From Clostridia bacterium (GTDB taxonomy: Bacteria > Bacillota > Clostridia > UMGS1810): a DNA stretch of 64,000 nucleotides. The stretch spans positions 62,001 to 126,000 of the forward strand of contig JAFUPN010000001.1 of the NCBI GenBank assembly GCA_017481205.1, written 5' to 3'. This document shows, piece after piece, positions 55,044-64,000 of this stretch (its first letter is position 1; every line of letters starts with the position of its first letter). The notes beneath the pieces were generated by a model. That model was given only the letters and a program-made list of their open reading frames with translations, was not told the DNA's origin and did no database searches. The translations under genes and the position numbers were made by a program.

Positions 55044-55976
55044 CTGAAAAAACAACCGAAAGATATTAAAAGGGAATTATCATGCTTTATCCCCGGGAGA
55101 ATTTTCCGTATTTTCGAAAAAGCTTTTGAAAGCACCGACTGGGACAACCTTGAAGAGATAAGAATATTTAAAAAAGGGGCAATCGTTGTAAACATCGGCG
55201 GAGAAAAGTCGTATGTATCATCGGATTTTAAAATAACAAAGCATGGAAAAGAATTTGTAACGGATGAAGCGGTTATCGACGAGCTTATAAATATTCTTAC
55301 CTGCTGCTCAAAATATGCCTACAAGGAATGTCTCGGCTCAGGCTATCTGACTGCCGGAGGAGGTCACAGAGTAGGACTTACAGGAACGGCAGTAACTATG
55401 GAAAACGGCTCATATATGCTTAAGGATATATCAGCTGCTAATATAAGGGTTTCAAAGGATATATCAAAATTTTCTGCATCAGATGAATTACTGAATGATG
55501 TGCTCTCATGGGGCACTACAGCTATAATTTCGCCGCCGAAATGCGGAAAAACAACCTTCCTGCGCAGAGCAGCAAGGCAAATAGCATCGGAGGCTGTTAT
55601 GACATCTGTTTGCATAATTGATGAAAAAGACGAAATATGTGCGGTAGATAAGGGTATTCCTTTTTACCGCACCGGTTTAAATGTTTGTATTATAAACAGT
55701 ATGCCCAAGGATGACGCAATCGGCATGATGATAAAAAACATGGCTCCGGAAATTATAATCTGCGATGAGATAACCACGGCAAAAGAAGCTGAGGCAGTAA
55801 AAAACGCTGCATTAAGCGGAGTTAATGTTTTGTTTACCGTTCACGGAAAAAACAAGGCAACTATGAAAGAAAAGAGCTTTCTGTCTTGTCTGGAGGGATA
55901 TGTTGACAGCGTTGTTGAACTTAGCGACAGACTAGGCCCCGGCACGGTTGAAAGCATAGAAAGGAGAAGGACATGA
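55044..55976 (+). CDS. spoIIIAA: Stage III sporulation protein AA (secretion-type ATPase), probable CTG start
   Basis: A 310-residue AAA ATPase related to type II/IV secretion ATPases. It energises the SpoIIIA-SpoIIQ channel between mother cell and forespore. Walker A is SPPKCGKTTFLRR (about residue 165), Walker B IICDEIT (about 240). N-terminal homology (IPGRIFRIFEKAF, LGSGYLTAGGGHRVGL) continues well upstream of the first in-frame ATG (55398), so that ATG is internal. The frame is open back to 55014 but contains no ATG, GTG or TTG before the conserved part. A CTG at 55044 has GGAAG seven bases upstream and gives a length close to the Bacillus protein, so I take it as the start. Confidence 0.85.
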   Translation: MKKQPKDIKRELSCFIPGRIFRIFEKAFESTDWDNLEEIRIFKKGAIVVNIGGEKSYVSSDFKITKHGKEFVTDEAVIDELINILTCCSKYAYKECLGSGYLTAGGGHRVGLTGTAVTMENGSYMLKDISAANIRVSKDISKFSASDELLNDVLSWGTTAIISPPKCGKTTFLRRAARQIASEAVMTSVCIIDEKDEICAVDKGIPFYRTGLNVCIINSMPKDDAIGMMIKNMAPEIIICDEITTAKEAEAVKNAALSGVNVLFTVHGKNKATMKEKSFLSCLEGYVDSVVELSDRLGPGTVESIERRRT

Positions 55977-56485
55977 TTGTATTTAAGCTTGCAGGCGCCG
56001 GTGCCATACTTATAGCGTCATATATGACTGCAAGAAATCTTCACAGTAATATGAAAGACAGGGAAAAAGAATTGGAAGAAATAATATTCATGTTTGAAGA
56101 AATGAAAAATAATTCATTTAACAACAACGATATTTCAGCATTAATTGAAGAAAGTATACAAAAAACCAATTTTAAAACCAAGCAAATATTTAAAAAATTT
56201 GTCTTATTGATGCACGAAAATAAATATACAGATTGTTTCGAGGCATGGGAAAATGCAAAAGACATGATGACACCGCTTTCCAAAGAAGATACGGCAGCTC
56301 TTGACAGCTTTTTTAAAAAATCAAACGACAGCACAGTAAGCTCATTTATAGAAAAAACAGATGAGGTTATAAAACGCCTTGCGGACAACCTGAGAGAAAT
56401 TAAAGAAAATGCTGATAAAAACAAAAAAATATATTATAACTCTTGTATATGTATAGGTATACTGACAGTTATATTGCTTATTTAA
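55973..56485 (+). CDS. spoIIIAB: Stage III sporulation protein AB
   Basis: A 170-residue protein with a short N-terminal membrane segment, a charged helical body (MKDREKELEEIIFMFEEM) and a C-terminal membrane segment (YYNSCICIGILTVILLI). Matches SpoIIIAB in length and layout, an assembly component with similarity to type II secretion GspF-like proteins. Start ATGA overlaps the spoIIIAA stop. Confidence 0.88.
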   Translation: MIVFKLAGAGAILIASYMTARNLHSNMKDREKELEEIIFMFEEMKNNSFNNNDISALIEESIQKTNFKTKQIFKKFVLLMHENKYTDCFEAWENAKDMMTPLSKEDTAALDSFFKKSNDSTVSSFIEKTDEVIKRLADNLREIKENADKNKKIYYNSCICIGILTVILLI

Positions 56486-56504
56486 ACAACAAGGGGAGGA
56501 AAAC

Positions 56505-56699
56505 ATGGAACTTGATTTAATATTTAAAATAGCGGGAACGGGCATAATAGTAGCCATATTGCACAGACTTCTTGTGCAGGCTGGCAGAGAGGAGCAGGCA
56601 CTCATGCTTTCAATAGGCGGTCTTGTGGTAGTCATGCTGATGATTGTATCAGAGATAAACGCGCTTTTTGAAGCAGTGCGTACTATGTTTACATACTGA
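56505..56699 (+). CDS. spoIIIAC: Stage III sporulation protein AC
   Basis: A 64-residue protein with two hydrophobic helices (IFKIAGTGIIVAILHRLL and ALMLSIGGLVVVMLMIV), identical in organisation to SpoIIIAC of Bacillus. Membrane component of the SpoIIIA machine. GGGGAGG upstream of the ATG. Confidence 0.92.
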   Translation: MELDLIFKIAGTGIIVAILHRLLVQAGREEQALMLSIGGLVVVMLMIVSEINALFEAVRTMFTY

Positions 56700-56701
56700 C
56701 A

Positions 56702-57079
56702 ATGATACGGACAATACTGATTAGTATATTAGGTATAATGATTATAAATATGATAAAACAATACAGAAGCGAATATGCTGTACCGGCGGCAGTCGCAGTA
56801 TCTGTCTGTCTTTTGTGGATAATAGCTGAAGAAGCAATTGCTTTAAGGGAGATAACCGGAAGCCTTACAGATGAATTGAATATTGATTCAGAGCTGGTCA
56901 GAGATATAATAAAGATTATCTGTATATCATATGCACGAAAAATAGGCTGTGATATGTGCACGGATTTCGGGTATAAAGCTATAGCTGATAAGGTGGATAT
57001 TTTTGGAAGATTTGCTGCTGCAGCTGTAATTATACCAAAGCTTCATTCGCTGTATGTTGACATAATTAAGTTATTGTAA
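56702..57079 (+). CDS. spoIIIAD: Stage III sporulation protein AD
   Basis: A 125-residue membrane protein with about four hydrophobic segments and the conserved ELVRDIIKIICISYARKIGC. Length and place, two bases after spoIIIAC, agree with SpoIIIAD. Confidence 0.92.
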   Translation: MIRTILISILGIMIINMIKQYRSEYAVPAAVAVSVCLLWIIAEEAIALREITGSLTDELNIDSELVRDIIKIICISYARKIGCDMCTDFGYKAIADKVDIFGRFAAAAVIIPKLHSLYVDIIKLL

Positions 57080-58164
57080 TGTTGATATTATATAGAACTT
57101 TTATATTACTAATTACATTTTTTACATTTGCATTAACAGAGGCATCAGCTGCAGAATTAAAAACATGTGCTATATACACAGATGCCTTGAATGATACTGT
57201 ATCAGCGAGCTTAAGTAATAATATTTCCCTCAGTGAGATGCTTGAAATGATTTCGTGTGGTGAATATGATGCGCTGCTGTCCCATGTTGCAGAAGCTGTA
57301 AAATTAAACCTCAACGATGCTATAATTAACCATAATGAAATTATGTATACTTTAATTGTTTTGATACTGATTTCCTGCTGTACAAATATAATTTTAGGTG
57401 ATGATTTTCGACCTGATGTAAGCTACATAAATATTTCAGCTGCTTTTCTGTTGCTTTCTTTATTTTCAGGAATGTATATACTTGCTGACAAAGCAGTTAC
57501 AGATATTTTTGAGCTTTTAAAAAACGTGCTGCCTGTTTTTCTGGGCTTTTCTGTAATATCAGCAAAAAGTGCTTACCTGAATACTGTCTTTGTATTTTAT
57601 ATGACCGGATTTCAATGGCTAAGCAAAAACCTGCTGCTTCCTCTTATAGCTATTGCTGCAGTAATGAGCATTATCTCTTCCTCAGGAGGCGGTATTGACT
57701 TTTCCAAGGGTAAATCGTCTCTTCTTGCTGCGGTAAATTGGACAATAGGCATATATACAACGCTTTTTCTTTGCTTTATCAAAATGCTGAGTATTTCTCT
57801 GTATCCTGCAGACAGGATTATTTACGGCGGTATCAGATATACTTTGTCAAAGGGCATACCTGTGGTGGGCGGATATGTTTCTGATTCACTGGAATCTGTG
57901 CTTGGAGGTGTTTCTGTCATTAGAAGCTCTGTGGGAGTTGCAGCTGCAGCAATACTTGTAACAGTTTCTGCTGTTCCTGCAGTTCTACCGATGCTTATTG
58001 GATGGCTTTTGAAGCTGCTGGGCGGATTTACTGCCATATTTTCTGATAATTCAACCTCGGCACTGGTAGGAGATATAGGCATATGCATCAGTGAGCTCGG
58101 TATCCTGCTGCTCGTGTGTGCCATAGGCTTTATCACCGGATTTTCTATTATGCTGTCAGGATGA
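57079..58164 (+). CDS. spoIIIAE: Stage III sporulation protein AE
   Basis: A 361-residue protein with a signal-like N terminus (ILLITFFTFALTEASA) and about seven further membrane segments. The typical SpoIIIAE sequence VAAAAILVTVSAVPAVLPML is near residue 295. Membrane core of the SpoIIIA complex. The ATG overlaps the spoIIIAD stop by one base. Confidence 0.9.
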   Translation: MLILYRTFILLITFFTFALTEASAAELKTCAIYTDALNDTVSASLSNNISLSEMLEMISCGEYDALLSHVAEAVKLNLNDAIINHNEIMYTLIVLILISCCTNIILGDDFRPDVSYINISAAFLLLSLFSGMYILADKAVTDIFELLKNVLPVFLGFSVISAKSAYLNTVFVFYMTGFQWLSKNLLLPLIAIAAVMSIISSSGGGIDFSKGKSSLLAAVNWTIGIYTTLFLCFIKMLSISLYPADRIIYGGIRYTLSKGIPVVGGYVSDSLESVLGGVSVIRSSVGVAAAAILVTVSAVPAVLPMLIGWLLKLLGGFTAIFSDNSTSALVGDIGICISELGILLLVCAIGFITGFSIMLSG

Positions 58165-58221
58165 TTTCTGATTTTAACGGTAAAATATTACATTCTTTGA
58201 GATTTGGGGTTGATTATATAA

Positions 58222-58500
58222 ATGAAAGCTTCTACGGTTATGTCGTGTATAGTACCGGCAGCTGCCATATGTAGCGCCGCAAGCTTGCTTTTGCCGGACA
58301 AAGCAGCGGTTAAATGGACAAATATTTTATGTGCTGTATATATTCTTACTTGCCTGTTTGCTTCAGTCAGAAGCTTTCTGCCGGATTTTAAATCAGAGGC
58401 CGAAGAAATTATTTTTTCATCCGAAAAAATAAGCAAAGATATTCAGGAAGAAATTGAAAGTATAATAAAAGATAATTACAAACAGGATGTATCGCCATGA
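58222..58500 (+). CDS. spoIIIAF: Stage III sporulation protein AF, short form
   Basis: A 92-residue protein with two N-terminal membrane helices (CIVPAAAICSAASLLLPD, WTNILCAVYILTCLFASV) and a charged helical tail. It is less than half the length of Bacillus SpoIIIAF (about 206 residues): the periplasm-like ring-forming domain is missing. A TAA directly precedes the ATG in frame, so no longer start exists; no frameshift extending it was found. Position between AE and AG fixes the identity. The 57-bp gap before it is unusual in this tightly packed operon. Confidence 0.8.
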   Translation: MKASTVMSCIVPAAAICSAASLLLPDKAAVKWTNILCAVYILTCLFASVRSFLPDFKSEAEEIIFSSEKISKDIQEEIESIIKDNYKQDVSP

Positions 58501-58967
58501 TTGATATTATTAAAACAAGTAAATTCAGGAATGCTGTGCTGTTGTTTCTTACAGGGATTATCCTGATGCTGCTGCCGGATATAAGCTTTACCCCAAAAGC
58601 TGTATCCTCCGGCGAAAAAGCTTTTCCGGACGGAATTGAACAATCATTATCAGAGGCTCTCAGAGAGACTTATAATCTTGAATATGCCAAGGTTATTATC
58701 ACTTATGATACTTATGGCGAAAAGGTAGTCGAATACAACTATGAGCAGACAGTTTCCGATACGGAAAACACCTATCAGAAAAGCTCTGTAGCTGACAAAA
58801 GCAGCAATCAGCCCTTTGTTAAGACAGAAAAACTGCCTTATGTCAGAGGCGCACTGGTATCTGTTTCGGCTGCGGATGAAAACACCTGTTTTGAAATACG
58901 CTCTGCAGTTTCAACACTGCTTGGTGTGTCTGTAAATAAAGTAAATGTAATCAGCGGAAAGGAATGA
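58497..58967 (+). CDS. spoIIIAG: Stage III sporulation protein AG
   Basis: A 156-residue protein: cytoplasmic start, one membrane helix (VLLFLTGIILMLLPDI) and an extracytoplasmic domain with the ring-building motif (AKVIITYDTYGEKVVEYN, then VSAADENTCFEIRSAVSTLL). SpoIIIAG forms a large ring of the mother cell-forespore channel. Shorter than the Bacillus protein (about 229 residues). Start ATGA overlaps the AF stop. Confidence 0.88.
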   Translation: MIDIIKTSKFRNAVLLFLTGIILMLLPDISFTPKAVSSGEKAFPDGIEQSLSEALRETYNLEYAKVIITYDTYGEKVVEYNYEQTVSDTENTYQKSSVADKSSNQPFVKTEKLPYVRGALVSVSAADENTCFEIRSAVSTLLGVSVNKVNVISGKE

Positions 58968-58971
58968 TTTT

Positions 58972-59478
58972 ATGAAAAAGAAATTAATTGTAGTTGCCGT
59001 TTTGGCGGTCATGCTGGGTATCACCGGCTATGTAAATTATGTGGGTGAAAGGTCCGAGCTTGCCGCAGCCGATACGGATGATGAATATATCCCCGTCGGC
59101 GAGGCTGTACCGATTTCCTCCGAAAGTATAAAGGAGGTTGATTATTTTCAAAAAGCAAAAATTGACAGAGAGGCTGAAAGAGCCGAGACAATTGACCTCC
59201 TTAATAATATGATAAACAACCCCAATACAACTGCCGATTCAAAGGTTAATGCCGAAAACAGACTGGCTGCCATTGCCGATAACATATCTGTAGAGGCTGC
59301 TGCTGAAGGTCTTATTAAAGCCAAGGGCTACCACGACGCTGTTGTATACATAGGTGAGTCCTCTGTAAACGTGGTAGTTGCTGCAGAAACTCTTACTGCC
59401 GGCGATACTGCAAAAATAAGAGATATTGTTTTTGAACAAACTAACAATAATAATATAAAAATAGTTGCAGTAAAATAA
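58972..59478 (+). CDS. spoIIIAH: Stage III sporulation protein AH
   Basis: A 168-residue membrane-anchored protein (helix at residues 4-22) with a YscJ/FliF-like domain (VNAENRLAAIADNISVEAAA, AKGYHDAVVYIGESSVNVVV). SpoIIIAH binds SpoIIQ from the forespore side in Bacillus to form the channel. Last gene of the spoIIIA operon; the promoter of the next unit overlaps its 3' end. Confidence 0.9.
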   Translation: MKKKLIVVAVLAVMLGITGYVNYVGERSELAAADTDDEYIPVGEAVPISSESIKEVDYFQKAKIDREAERAETIDLLNNMINNPNTTADSKVNAENRLAAIADNISVEAAAEGLIKAKGYHDAVVYIGESSVNVVVAAETLTAGDTAKIRDIVFEQTNNNNIKIVAVK

Positions 59479-60421: not shown

Positions 60422-60436
60422 CAGGGAGGTTTGATT

Positions 60437-61627
60437 ATGCCTGTTATTACTGTCAGCCAGCTCAACAACTACATGAGACGTTATGTGGATAACAACTCAA
60501 ATTTGAGCGGTTTGTATATAAAAGGCGAAATATCAAATTTTAAAAGGCACAGCTCCGGTCACTTGTATCTTACTTTAAAAGACAGCGGGTCTGTGCTTAA
60601 GTGCGTTATGTTTCAATCCTATGCCGCATCTCTCAAGTTTTCTCCAGAGAATGGAATGAAGGTTATTGCATTCGGCAGGGTATCGGTATATGAAGCCGGC
60701 GGAGTATATCAGCTGTATATAGAACAGATTATCCCTGACGGAAAAGGGGAGCTTTATGCAGCATATGAACAGCTTAAGGCTCAGCTCGAAGCACTGGGAT
60801 ATTTTGACCCTGCGCACAAAATGCCGCTTCCGCAGTATCCCGGCACCATAGGTGTTGTAACCTCGCCTGAAGGTGCTGCTGTAAGGGATGTGCTCAGCGT
60901 GCTTGGACGCAGATTTCCCCTTGCCGAAATACTGATATATCCGGCTCAGGTTCAGGGTATTGGTGCTTCTGATACCATAGTCAGCGGTATTGAATATTTT
61001 AATGCCACATCCCCTGCGGATGTGCTGATTATAGGAAGAGGCGGCGGTTCCATCGAGGATCTGTGGGCTTTTAATGAACGCAATGTTGCAGATGCAATAT
61101 ATAATTCTCACATACCGATAATATCTGCTGTGGGACATGAAACAGATTTTACTATAGCCGATTTTGTTGCAGATATGCGTGCTCCCACACCTTCTGCAGC
61201 TGCAGAGATGGCTGTTCCTGACTGTACGGAGCTGTACAGACAACTGAAAATGTCTTCTGATAAGCTTGCAACCGCTTTATCAAGCACTTTAAAAATTAAG
61301 AGAAATAAATTTGAAGCCCTGATGAGAACAAATATGGATAACCTCCTTATACGTTATATTCAGGATAAAAAAATTTATACCGACGATATAATTGCAGAAA
61401 TGACCGAGGCTTATGAAAACACCGTAGCCGGAAAGCGCAATAGCTTTTCTACTCTGTGTGCAAAGCTTGATGCTCTCAGCCCTGTGAAAGTTCTTTCCAG
61501 GGGCTATTCTGTGGCAAGAACATCAAAAGGCATTGTGTCCTCAGTAGCCGATGTAGCTCCCGGAGATGACATTGATATAACATTGAATGACGGTACTTTA
61601 AACTGTCAGGTAAAACAAATACAGTAA
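60437..61627 (+). CDS. xseA: Exodeoxyribonuclease VII large subunit
   Basis: A 396-residue protein: OB-fold domain (LYIKGEISNFKRHSSGHLYL), nuclease domain (IGVVTSPEGAAVRDVLSVL, IIGRGGGSIEDLWAFNE, SAVGHETDFTIADFVAD with the catalytic residues) and a helical C-terminal part. With XseB it degrades single-stranded DNA. The ATG at 60437 is 8 bp from GGGAGG. folD, often found before xseA, is missing. Confidence 0.95.
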   Translation: MPVITVSQLNNYMRRYVDNNSNLSGLYIKGEISNFKRHSSGHLYLTLKDSGSVLKCVMFQSYAASLKFSPENGMKVIAFGRVSVYEAGGVYQLYIEQIIPDGKGELYAAYEQLKAQLEALGYFDPAHKMPLPQYPGTIGVVTSPEGAAVRDVLSVLGRRFPLAEILIYPAQVQGIGASDTIVSGIEYFNATSPADVLIIGRGGGSIEDLWAFNERNVADAIYNSHIPIISAVGHETDFTIADFVADMRAPTPSAAAEMAVPDCTELYRQLKMSSDKLATALSSTLKIKRNKFEALMRTNMDNLLIRYIQDKKIYTDDIIAEMTEAYENTVAGKRNSFSTLCAKLDALSPVKVLSRGYSVARTSKGIVSSVADVAPGDDIDITLNDGTLNCQVKQIQ

Positions 61628-61639
61628 GAGGTGTATTCT

Positions 61640-61852
61640 ATGGCAAAATCATCAAAAAGCTTTGAAAGCAAAATGGAAATGCTTGAAGAAATAGTAACCA
61701 AGCTTGAGAGAGGAGAAGCTCCTCTTGAAGAATGTATGAGCATGTATGAAAAAGGCGTTGCTCTTGCCAAAGAATGCATGACCATGCTGGATGAAGCTGA
61801 ACAAAAAATTAAGACAGTAGGTGCAGCCGGACAAGCTGCTGCCGATGAATGA
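61640..61852 (+). CDS. xseB: Exodeoxyribonuclease VII small subunit
   Basis: A 70-residue helical protein (SFESKMEMLEEIVTKLERGE; LEECMSMYEKGVALAKECM) with the standard XseB pattern. It is 12 bp after xseA; GAGGTG precedes the ATG. The structured RNA begins about 30 bp after its stop codon. Confidence 0.93.
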   Translation: MAKSSKSFESKMEMLEEIVTKLERGEAPLEECMSMYEKGVALAKECMTMLDEAEQKIKTVGAAGQAAADE

Positions 61853-61883
61853 TTTTTTTGTTTGGAATATAAATTAATACAAA

Positions 61884-62710
61884 ATTAATGGTGGTGCAGT
61901 ATTCTAGTCAGATCTTCCGCTTTTTAAGATGGGCCTAAAAATCCATTAAAGGGCATATCGATGAAGTTCCTGGTGTTTGCTTCTTACGCCCAGTTTGGGG
62001 TTGATGCTGGGAGTTAAGGATTAAGGGCGATCCGCAATGGCATGTGGGCGTTGACCCTTTTTCCGTGGAGACCCGAATATGTAGGCAATGATGGGGCTGC
62101 ACAGATATTTATTTCTGTGCTCACCCTTTAGTGCTATAGTCGAAACAAAGTAATCCGAACCCGCCTGAAAGACATGAAATTTTTTAGGGCGAGGATTTTT
62201 TGCTGCGTAAGGCGAAAACGTTGGCAATCTTGACTGATTGCCGTGTATTTTAACACAACGAAAGCAACAATCCGCCGGTAAAAATCTGAGTTCGGATTGT
62301 TTTGCTTCGGCTATGGTGCTTATGAGTTAGTTAAGCTGCTTACGTATCGGGATAAAACCTGTTTTGCGGTGTAGGTAACAATATGCTGTGAGCAGTGTAG
62401 CCTGCCTTGAGTGAATGTGGTGGAAAATTGTTCATGCCCGGTACCAACGGCCATTGGAACCGGGAAATCGCTCTTTAAACCCCATTTGCAAAAGAGGCTA
62501 AGAAATCGGGATGACTGTGAGGAAAACTCCTAGACTGTTTTATATAAAGGATTGCAGTACGGACTAAGTGGTAGTTTAGCAATGCGCACGGTGACGGCGT
62601 ATGCAGAATTTTAAAAGGGAACTGCCGGATTGGCGACGAACCGGTAATTCTGCGGGAAAGCCCGCTGAACCTAAGCCGTAAATTTTACTTTATATATTAC
62701 CACCATTAAT
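61884..62710 (+). ncRNA. ole: OLE (ornate, large, extremophilic) RNA
   Basis: An 827-base non-coding stretch between xseB and a small membrane-protein gene followed by dxs, the known setting of OLE RNA. Its ends are perfectly complementary: ATTAATGGTGGT (61884-61895) and ACCACCATTAAT (62699-62710), a 12-bp closing helix. Internal hairpins are visible: GCACAGA 62099-62105 with TCTGTGC 62114-62120; GGCAATC 62223-62229 with GATTGCC 62236-62242; AACAATCCG 62266-62274 with CGGATTGTT 62293-62301. No frame shows coding character, and composition is richer in G than the flanks. In Halalkalibacterium halodurans OLE RNA is abundant, binds OapA at the membrane and affects growth in cold, alcohol or Mg2+ stress. 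I identify it by context and fold, not by a covariance search. Exact 5' and 3' ends of the transcript are inferred. Confidence 0.88.
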
Positions 62711-62732
62711 ATATAAATCAGAGGAAACTTCA

Positions 62733-63293
62733 ATGAAAAAAGTAAAACCTAATAATAAATGGGTCAGACTCGTTACAGCAGTTGCTTTTGTGATATCAAT
62801 TCTACTGAGCATTGTTACTAACACTGTTGTAAACGACCTGTATCTGGCTGCGGCATTTATAGTGCTGCTTGCGGTAATTGCCTCAGGTATATTTTTCGAT
62901 GTTATAGGACTGGCAGTTGCAACCGCTACGGAGGTGCCTTTTCACGCAAAAGCGGCAAAACGCCTTATCGGAGCCAGAGAGTCTATTTATCTCATACGCA
63001 ATGCTGACAAGGTATCAAGCTTTTGCAATGATGTTATCGGTGACATAGCCGGAGTTATATCAGGCGGGCTTGCCGCTTCAATTGTCGTTAAAATACAAAC
63101 TAGTATTCCCGGTGCCGCAGGTATATGGCTTAATCTCTTGCTGACTGCAAGTGTTTCGGCAGTTACTATCGGTGGGAAAGCTTATTTTAAAACCATTGCC
63201 ATGAACAAAAGCTACAGTATTGTTGAAAAATGCGGTATAGTAATATACAAGATTTCAAATCTGTCCAGGCTAAAAAGTAACGAAAAGAGATAA
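62733..63293 (+). CDS. oapA: OLE-associated membrane protein OapA
   Basis: A 186-residue protein with four hydrophobic segments (about residues 12-32, 34-60, 103-121, 130-150) and a basic N terminus ([12 protein letters not shown]). It has a conserved-looking loop [20 protein letters not shown] (about residues 65-84) rich in basic residues. OapA proteins are encoded directly after OLE RNA and bring two per RNA to the cytoplasmic membrane. GAGGAAA lies before the ATG, 22 bases after the RNA's closing helix. It shares the operon with dxs (4-bp gap). Identity rests on position, size and topology. Confidence 0.85.
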
Positions 63294-63297
63294 GAAA

Positions 63298-64000
63298 ATG
63301 AGTATACTTGATTCAATAAATTCACCCGAAGATGTCAGAAAGCTTGATATCGGACAATTAAATATTCTTTCGGGAGAAATCAGAGAATTTCTTATAAAAA
63401 ACATTCTTGTAACCGGAGGACATCTGGCGTCAAACCTTGGAGTGGTAGAGCTTACCCTTGCCCTTCACAAGGTGTTTGACTTATCTGTTGACCGGCTGAT
63501 TTTTGATGTAGGTCATCAATCCTATGTGCACAAAATTATAACCGGCAGACGCGAGGCTTTTTCAACCCTCAGAAAGCTCGGAGGCTTATCTGGATTTCCC
63601 AAGCCCTGCGAAAGCATATATGATGCCTTCGGTGCAGGTCATGCAAGCACGTCAATCTCAGCGGCGGCAGGCATTGCACGTGCCAGGGATTTGCAGGGAG
63701 AGTCCTATAACGTGATTGCTTTTATAGGTGACGGCGCCCTTACCGGCGGTATGGCTTTTGAGGCGCTTAATGATATCGGTCAGCGTAAATCTAAAATGAT
63801 TATAATACTCAACGACAATGAGATGTCTATAGAAAAAAACGTGGGCGGGCTTTCTGCCCATCTGGGATTGTTGCGTTACAGTCAGAAATATCTGAATACA
63901 AAAAATGCTGTGGCGGAATATCTTGATAAAAAAGGAAAAAAAGGTGCTGTATTGGCTCAATGGATAAAATCTGCCAAGGACAGGTTTAAGTTTGCGACAA
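63298..64000 (+). CDS. dxs: 1-deoxy-D-xylulose-5-phosphate synthase, 3' end outside window
   Basis: The first 234 codons of a transketolase-fold enzyme, running off the right edge. The DXS signatures are present: [18 protein letters not shown] (about residue 41), [16 protein letters not shown] (about 72), [15 protein letters not shown] (about 115) and the thiamine-pyrophosphate loop [17 protein letters not shown] (about 143) with NDNEMSI. It condenses pyruvate and glyceraldehyde 3-phosphate in the MEP isoprenoid pathway. In many Firmicutes ispA lies between xseB and dxs; here it is replaced by the OLE RNA and oapA. Confidence 0.95.

Follow-up and report, generated by a model that had tools for sequence, protein, structure and literature searches.

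The region between xseB and oapA in the 64-kb window (the whole stretch of DNA analysed, 64,000 nucleotides) holds a full-length OLE RNA of the OLE-OapA membrane complex, the P7 arm of which was very probably invaded by a transposed 177-nt MITE that left the RNA core intact; we put the probability of this reading at roughly 0.85. The OLE RNA itself belongs to a known class. The novelty lies in a naturally occurring MITE insertion into an OLE RNA that is otherwise intact; a literature search (most subscription papers lay outside its reach) found no published description of such a case.

Identity and setting of the OLE RNA

The Rfam OLE model (RF01071), which the sequence-only reading had proposed as a check on its OLE assignment, matches 61875 to 62719 from the first to the last model position (468.1 bits; E = 3.1 × 10−134; curated cutoff, 50), a full-length covariance-model match. 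It is the sole Rfam match in the window, and a genome search gave a copy number of one. The interval given earlier, 61884 to 62710, corresponds to the outer ends of the closing helix. The features of the locus are as follows.

60431 to 61627, + strand: xseA, exodeoxyribonuclease VII large subunit (NCBIfam TIGR00237, 479.9 bits; start codon predicted)
61643 to 61852, + strand: xseB, exodeoxyribonuclease VII small subunit (NCBIfam TIGR01280, 75.5 bits)
61875 to 62719, + strand: OLE RNA gene (RF01071 model positions 1 to 616; bounds set by the Rfam model, not transcript ends)
61884 to 61895, + strand: 5' arm of the 12-bp closing helix P1 (100% complementary to 62699 to 62710; covaries in 52 OLE RNAs)
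62699 to 62710, + strand: 3' arm of P1 (100% complementary to 61884 to 61895; covaries in the same RNAs)
62733 to 63293, + strand: oapA, OLE-associated membrane protein A, 186 aa (homologues 37 to 51% identical; OLE upstream at 17/17 loci)
63298 to 63999, + strand: dxs, 5' part, running off the window (Pfam PF13292, 321 bits)

The gap between the end of xseB (61852) and the start of oapA (62733) contains no plausible coding frame, as the earlier reading had held, and the gene order nusB-xseA-xseB-OLE-oapA-dxs is the standard OLE setting that it had recognized. No Pfam or NCBIfam model matches the 186-aa product of oapA; its homologues share 37 to 51% identity, and OLE lies directly upstream in all 17 homologue loci scanned, including those of Paenibacillus, Bacillus, and Alkalihalobacillus, which together identify the protein, at the level of sequence and neighborhood, as an OapA orthologue. 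In the Rfam alignment, the self-complementary kissing loop of P9 is present as GGCC within the loop CCAACGGCCAUUGG; a GGCC-type kissing loop of P9 is the dimer contact in OLE (PMC12286853). We conclude that 61875 to 62719 is a genuine full-length OLE RNA. Of the G-richness ascribed to it, the positive GC skew stands, though the bias is only mild (GC, 0.39 to 0.48). The suggestion that a nonextremophile host widens the ecological range of this RNA did not survive, since the published record of OLE RNAs already spans 2,822 Bacillota genomes, uncultured gut clades among them (PMC11332333).

A spoIIIA operon (AA, AB, AC, AD, AE, and AH by Pfam) is located at 55398 to 59478, just upstream, suggesting that the host is probably a spore former. 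A correlation of OLE with sporulation genes has been published, and the operon in the window agrees with this.

The two 12-nt arms at the ends of the RNA are exactly complementary, as had been read from the sequence. After OLE loci were oriented by their CTAGTC motif, as in all later analyses, cognate 5' and 3' ends paired at a mean of −18.8 kcal/mol, compared to −12.5 kcal/mol for ends swapped between molecules (n = 52), a cognate mean reached in 0 of 20,000 permutations; given that the 52 RNAs are mutually related, these values are support rather than a probability, and two-sided changes recur. Six core P1 pairs are standard in 48 to 52 of the 52 RNAs, with compensatory changes at pair 1 (C-G, 20; U-A, 19; A-U, 3), pair 5 (G-C, 38; A-U, 12), and pair 6 (G-C, 44; A-U, 4; U-A, 1). 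The helix is therefore real and general to OLE. It is neither new nor special to this locus: Lyon and Breaker already list P1 as part of the OLE structure (PMC12265935). The RF01071 structure leaves both termini unpaired and lacks P1 despite its clear covariation in the 52 sequences; adding P1 would sharpen the model. Separately, an 11-bp A/U hairpin can form at the 3' end of OLE (62689 to 62699 with 62707 to 62717); it would loop out the 3' arm of P1 and thus compete with it.

A dispersed repeat in stem P7

At 845 nt, the OLE RNA in the window is the longest among the approximately 300 OLE matches listed, followed by one of 723 nt (genome G278), while most listed matches span 540 to 690 nt; the comparison counts 936 genomes over all queries, and the lowest-scoring matches fall outside the list, so longer ones may exist. 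Within the host's own family, five further genomes carry OLE, with spans of 670 to 683 nt. The unusual length had thus been noted correctly, whereas the extra OLE domain invoked to account for it proved to be a MITE-type repeat found at dozens of other sites in the genome.

The excess is confined to one loop in the first of the two stems preceding P9, where 243 nt replace 7 model positions in the Rfam alignment. Published texts call these two stems P7 and P8 (PMC11332333, PMC12265935), and we take the enlarged stem to be P7, a name mapped from those publications, not computed, with the GGCC kissing loop of P9 as the anchor. The distance from the conserved GTGGAGACC to the conserved AAACCTG is 281 nt in the window compared to 104 to 114 nt in family relatives. 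One 177-nt element at 62137 to 62313, in distal P7, accounts for the excess: P7 minus the element, with one TA kept, measures 106 nt. This is a comparison with the empty site by length only (106 versus 104 to 114 nt), since the distal P7 sequences of the relatives are not alignable; length and element boundaries together point to a precise insertion into P7. The features of the enlarged stem are as follows.

62072 to 62351, + strand: stem P7 including the insert (Rfam alignment, predicted fold, and lengths; named after PMC11332333 and PMC12265935)
62133 to 62317, + strand: predicted long hairpin, 27 bp plus one A·C mismatch (62133 to 62160 with 62290 to 62317)
62137 to 62313, + strand: MITE-type mobile element, 177 nt, in distal P7 (genome dispersal; boundaries from aligned copies)
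62137 to 62160, + strand: left terminal inverted repeat TAGTCGAAACAAAGTAATCCGAAC (alignment of copies; repeat-pattern search)
62290 to 62313, + strand: right terminal inverted repeat GTTCGGATTGTTTTGCTTCGGCTA (alignment of copies)

Searched against its own genome by BLAST, the insert gave 54 matches at an E value of ≤1, among them eight nonself matches at 5 × 10−14 or better (73 to 84% identity, in both orientations). We fetched 35 stretches of the genome and aligned the copies to define the family, a repeat of approximately 275 bp that has TAGCCGAAAGATAATAATCCGAAC at one end and the inverted complement of that sequence at the other, of which the 177-nt OLE copy is a shorter, diverged member. 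The family consensus matches its own genome 75 times, 11 of these at full length with 91 to 98% identity, and also matches other genomes of the family, most often G003 (38 matches), G010 (20), and G011 (18). With up to 3 mismatches allowed, the terminal repeat has 80 matches in the genome versus 0 for a reversed-pattern control. The OLE copy has TA at each end, as do 12 of 18 paired copies, with no longer duplication, and the terminal arms of the OLE copy are 24 nt long and pair with three G-U positions and one A·C position. Given the dispersed copies, terminal inverted repeats, and TA ends, we conclude that the insert is a MITE. A search of 13 genomes for a cognate DDE_3 (IS630-type) transposase was negative (the insert's own genome is 71% complete), and 15 stretches around terminal repeats, inspected by eye for an autonomous parent element, contained no recognizable transposase. 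Another known RNA family inside the insert was rejected, the best Rfam match being RT-2 at 13 bits (cutoff, 40).

Several observations on the repeat and on other OLE loci are recorded here in their own right. MITEs with TAGCCGAAAGATA(A/G)TAATCCGAAC ends (also given as TAGCCGAAAGATA(A/G)TAATCCGAA) are abundant in one uncultured Clostridia family, occurring in G000, G003, G010, G011, G006, G008, and G004 (loci L061 to L107). They include subfamilies of 73 to 75% identity that have only the inner part in common, and several matches in G003 lie at contig ends, where the MITE has probably broken the assemblies. The loops of P7 (34 to 50 nt) and of P8 (69 to 76 nt) are both enlarged in two OLE RNAs of another family (L210, 670 to 1385, 716 nt; L211, 1501 to 2223, 723 nt). 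As a negative control, and in search of a second repeat within an OLE RNA, the additional P7/P8 sequence in the 723-nt RNA of G278 was compared to its own genome, which yielded no second copy. Finally, OLE matches in G506, G390, and G540 (L219, L220, L221, L224, L226, L227, and L231) are split, covering 54 to 277 and 286 to 435 with the ends missing; these may be contig ends, sequence gaps, or rearranged OLE.

Condition of the RNA and fate of the insert

We propose that a MITE of 177 nt, with TA ends and terminal inverted repeats, transposed into the P7 arm. Because the element ends are inverted repeats, the transcribed insert would fold back on itself as a 27-bp side hairpin branching from P7, leaving the base of P7 paired. 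In the predicted fold, the four outer pairs (62133 to 62136 with 62314 to 62317) are OLE sequence outside the element, and a long, near-perfect stem encloses the insert inside a helix of a structured RNA, as in intervening sequences of the rRNA type. The folding z-score of −8.5 was set aside as evidence of RNA function, since any inverted repeat yields such a score. P7 and P8 are not dimerization contacts, and some OLE RNAs lack them (Lyon and Breaker, PMC12265935; see PMC11332333, by which P7 is dispensable in some clades), which would explain why an insertion in P7 is tolerated. The OLE core should still be able to fold, dimerize, and bind OapA, while the hairpin, less certainly, is either retained after maturation or cleaved by RNase III.

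Cutting of the hairpin by RNase III is compatible with the MITE insertion reading and concerns only the fate of the insert: mature OLE would then consist of two pieces held by base pairing. In length, the 27-bp stem resembles that of the intervening sequence in Coxiella 23S rRNA (28 bp), an element that RNase III excises to leave a fragmented, functional RNA (PMC4990558), and Correia MITE repeats in transcripts are likewise cut by RNase III (PMC10969869). By analogy, the hairpin is a plausible RNase III target. However, it might be shielded by the OLE complex, and excision is reported for no OLE. We regard as possible, with odds clearly against it, a naturally split OLE in this lineage, in which RNase III removes or nicks the P7 hairpin and the pieces still form the membrane OLE-OapA complex, as a counterpart of fragmented 23S rRNA.

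Domestication of the insert, which would make it a genuine additional OLE domain with a partner or function of its own, is unlikely. The insert is retained in an intact OLE, and its ends continue the P7 branch with OLE-side pairs; however, the same sequence occurs at many unrelated sites in the genome, five relatives lack the insert, and the arms deviate from perfect pairing at just four positions, a number too small to reveal selection.

If the insertion had instead inactivated OLE, this copy would be a decaying pseudogene, perhaps with transcription truncated at a hairpin inside the element. Its bit score is the lowest among the OLE-bearing genomes of the family (468 versus 480 to 499), and a terminator-like hairpin lies at 62222 to 62243; however, the U tract of this hairpin is poor, and a single site of this kind is within what shuffled sequences yield. 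Of the 201 near-invariant positions outside P7 (≥97% conservation across 48 other OLE RNAs), 198 are unchanged, the window OLE ranks 15 of 49 in root-to-tip distance, indicating no acceleration, the closing helix is intact, and the downstream oapA and dxs frames are open. The core is thus undamaged, and the RNA shows no sign of decay. This holds even though the copy in OLE differs considerably from the rest of its family (by 16 to 27% from the best-matching copies), so that the insertion does not look recent; part of this divergence may predate the insertion. Inactivation is therefore quite improbable. The insertion is carried by only one genome and so may be a short-lived variant.

The weakest alternative, a repeat copy misjoined into the OLE of a metagenome-derived genome in 43 contigs, some of them ending in copies of the repeat, is very improbable, since the sequences on either side of the insert are parts of a single OLE RNA, correctly ordered, with xseB and oapA outside, and the longest exact stretch that the insert shares with any fetched copy is 23 nt, a poor site for a false join.

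Implications and comparison with known systems

Few structured bacterial RNAs that lack a known biochemical function are as large as OLE, and there is little knowledge of which of its parts tolerate change. The 177-nt insertion, which arose naturally in an RNA that is otherwise intact, marks distal P7 as a permissive site, in agreement with structures that lack a dimer contact in P7, and suggests this position for tags or circular permutation. It also provides a case in which the gene for a large nonribosomal RNA has taken in a mobile repeat, and a caution that apparent extra domains of long noncoding RNAs can be repeats.

Compared to the full-length type of OLE RNA (Fernando and Breaker 2024, PMC11332333), the RNA in the window shares all model positions, the core, the closing helix, OapA, and the xseB-dxs neighborhood; its P7 is enlarged by a MITE from approximately 106 to 281 nt, whereas known variants 1 and 2 depart in the other direction, with P7/P8 shortened or lost. 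The pneumococcal RUP, a TA-targeting MITE of Streptococcus pneumoniae that is attributed to an IS630 transposase, is likewise small and noncoding, with many copies, terminal inverted repeats, and TA ends (PMC2229807); the family described here differs in sequence, no parent insertion sequence was found for it, and one copy lies inside a structured RNA gene. Correia/NEMIS elements of Neisseria are also MITEs whose transcribed repeats form hairpins, which RNase III cuts (PMC2229807, PMC10969869), but they are unrelated to the OLE insert in sequence, and the work on them concerns mRNAs, not a structured RNA. The 23S rRNA intervening sequences, such as that in Coxiella helix 45 (PMC4990558), share with the OLE insert a selfish nature and a stem of approximately 27 to 28 bp by which a helix in a large structured RNA is lengthened; in contrast, the insert described here sits in OLE and belongs to a genome-dispersed family, and it is for the rRNA system that excision is known.
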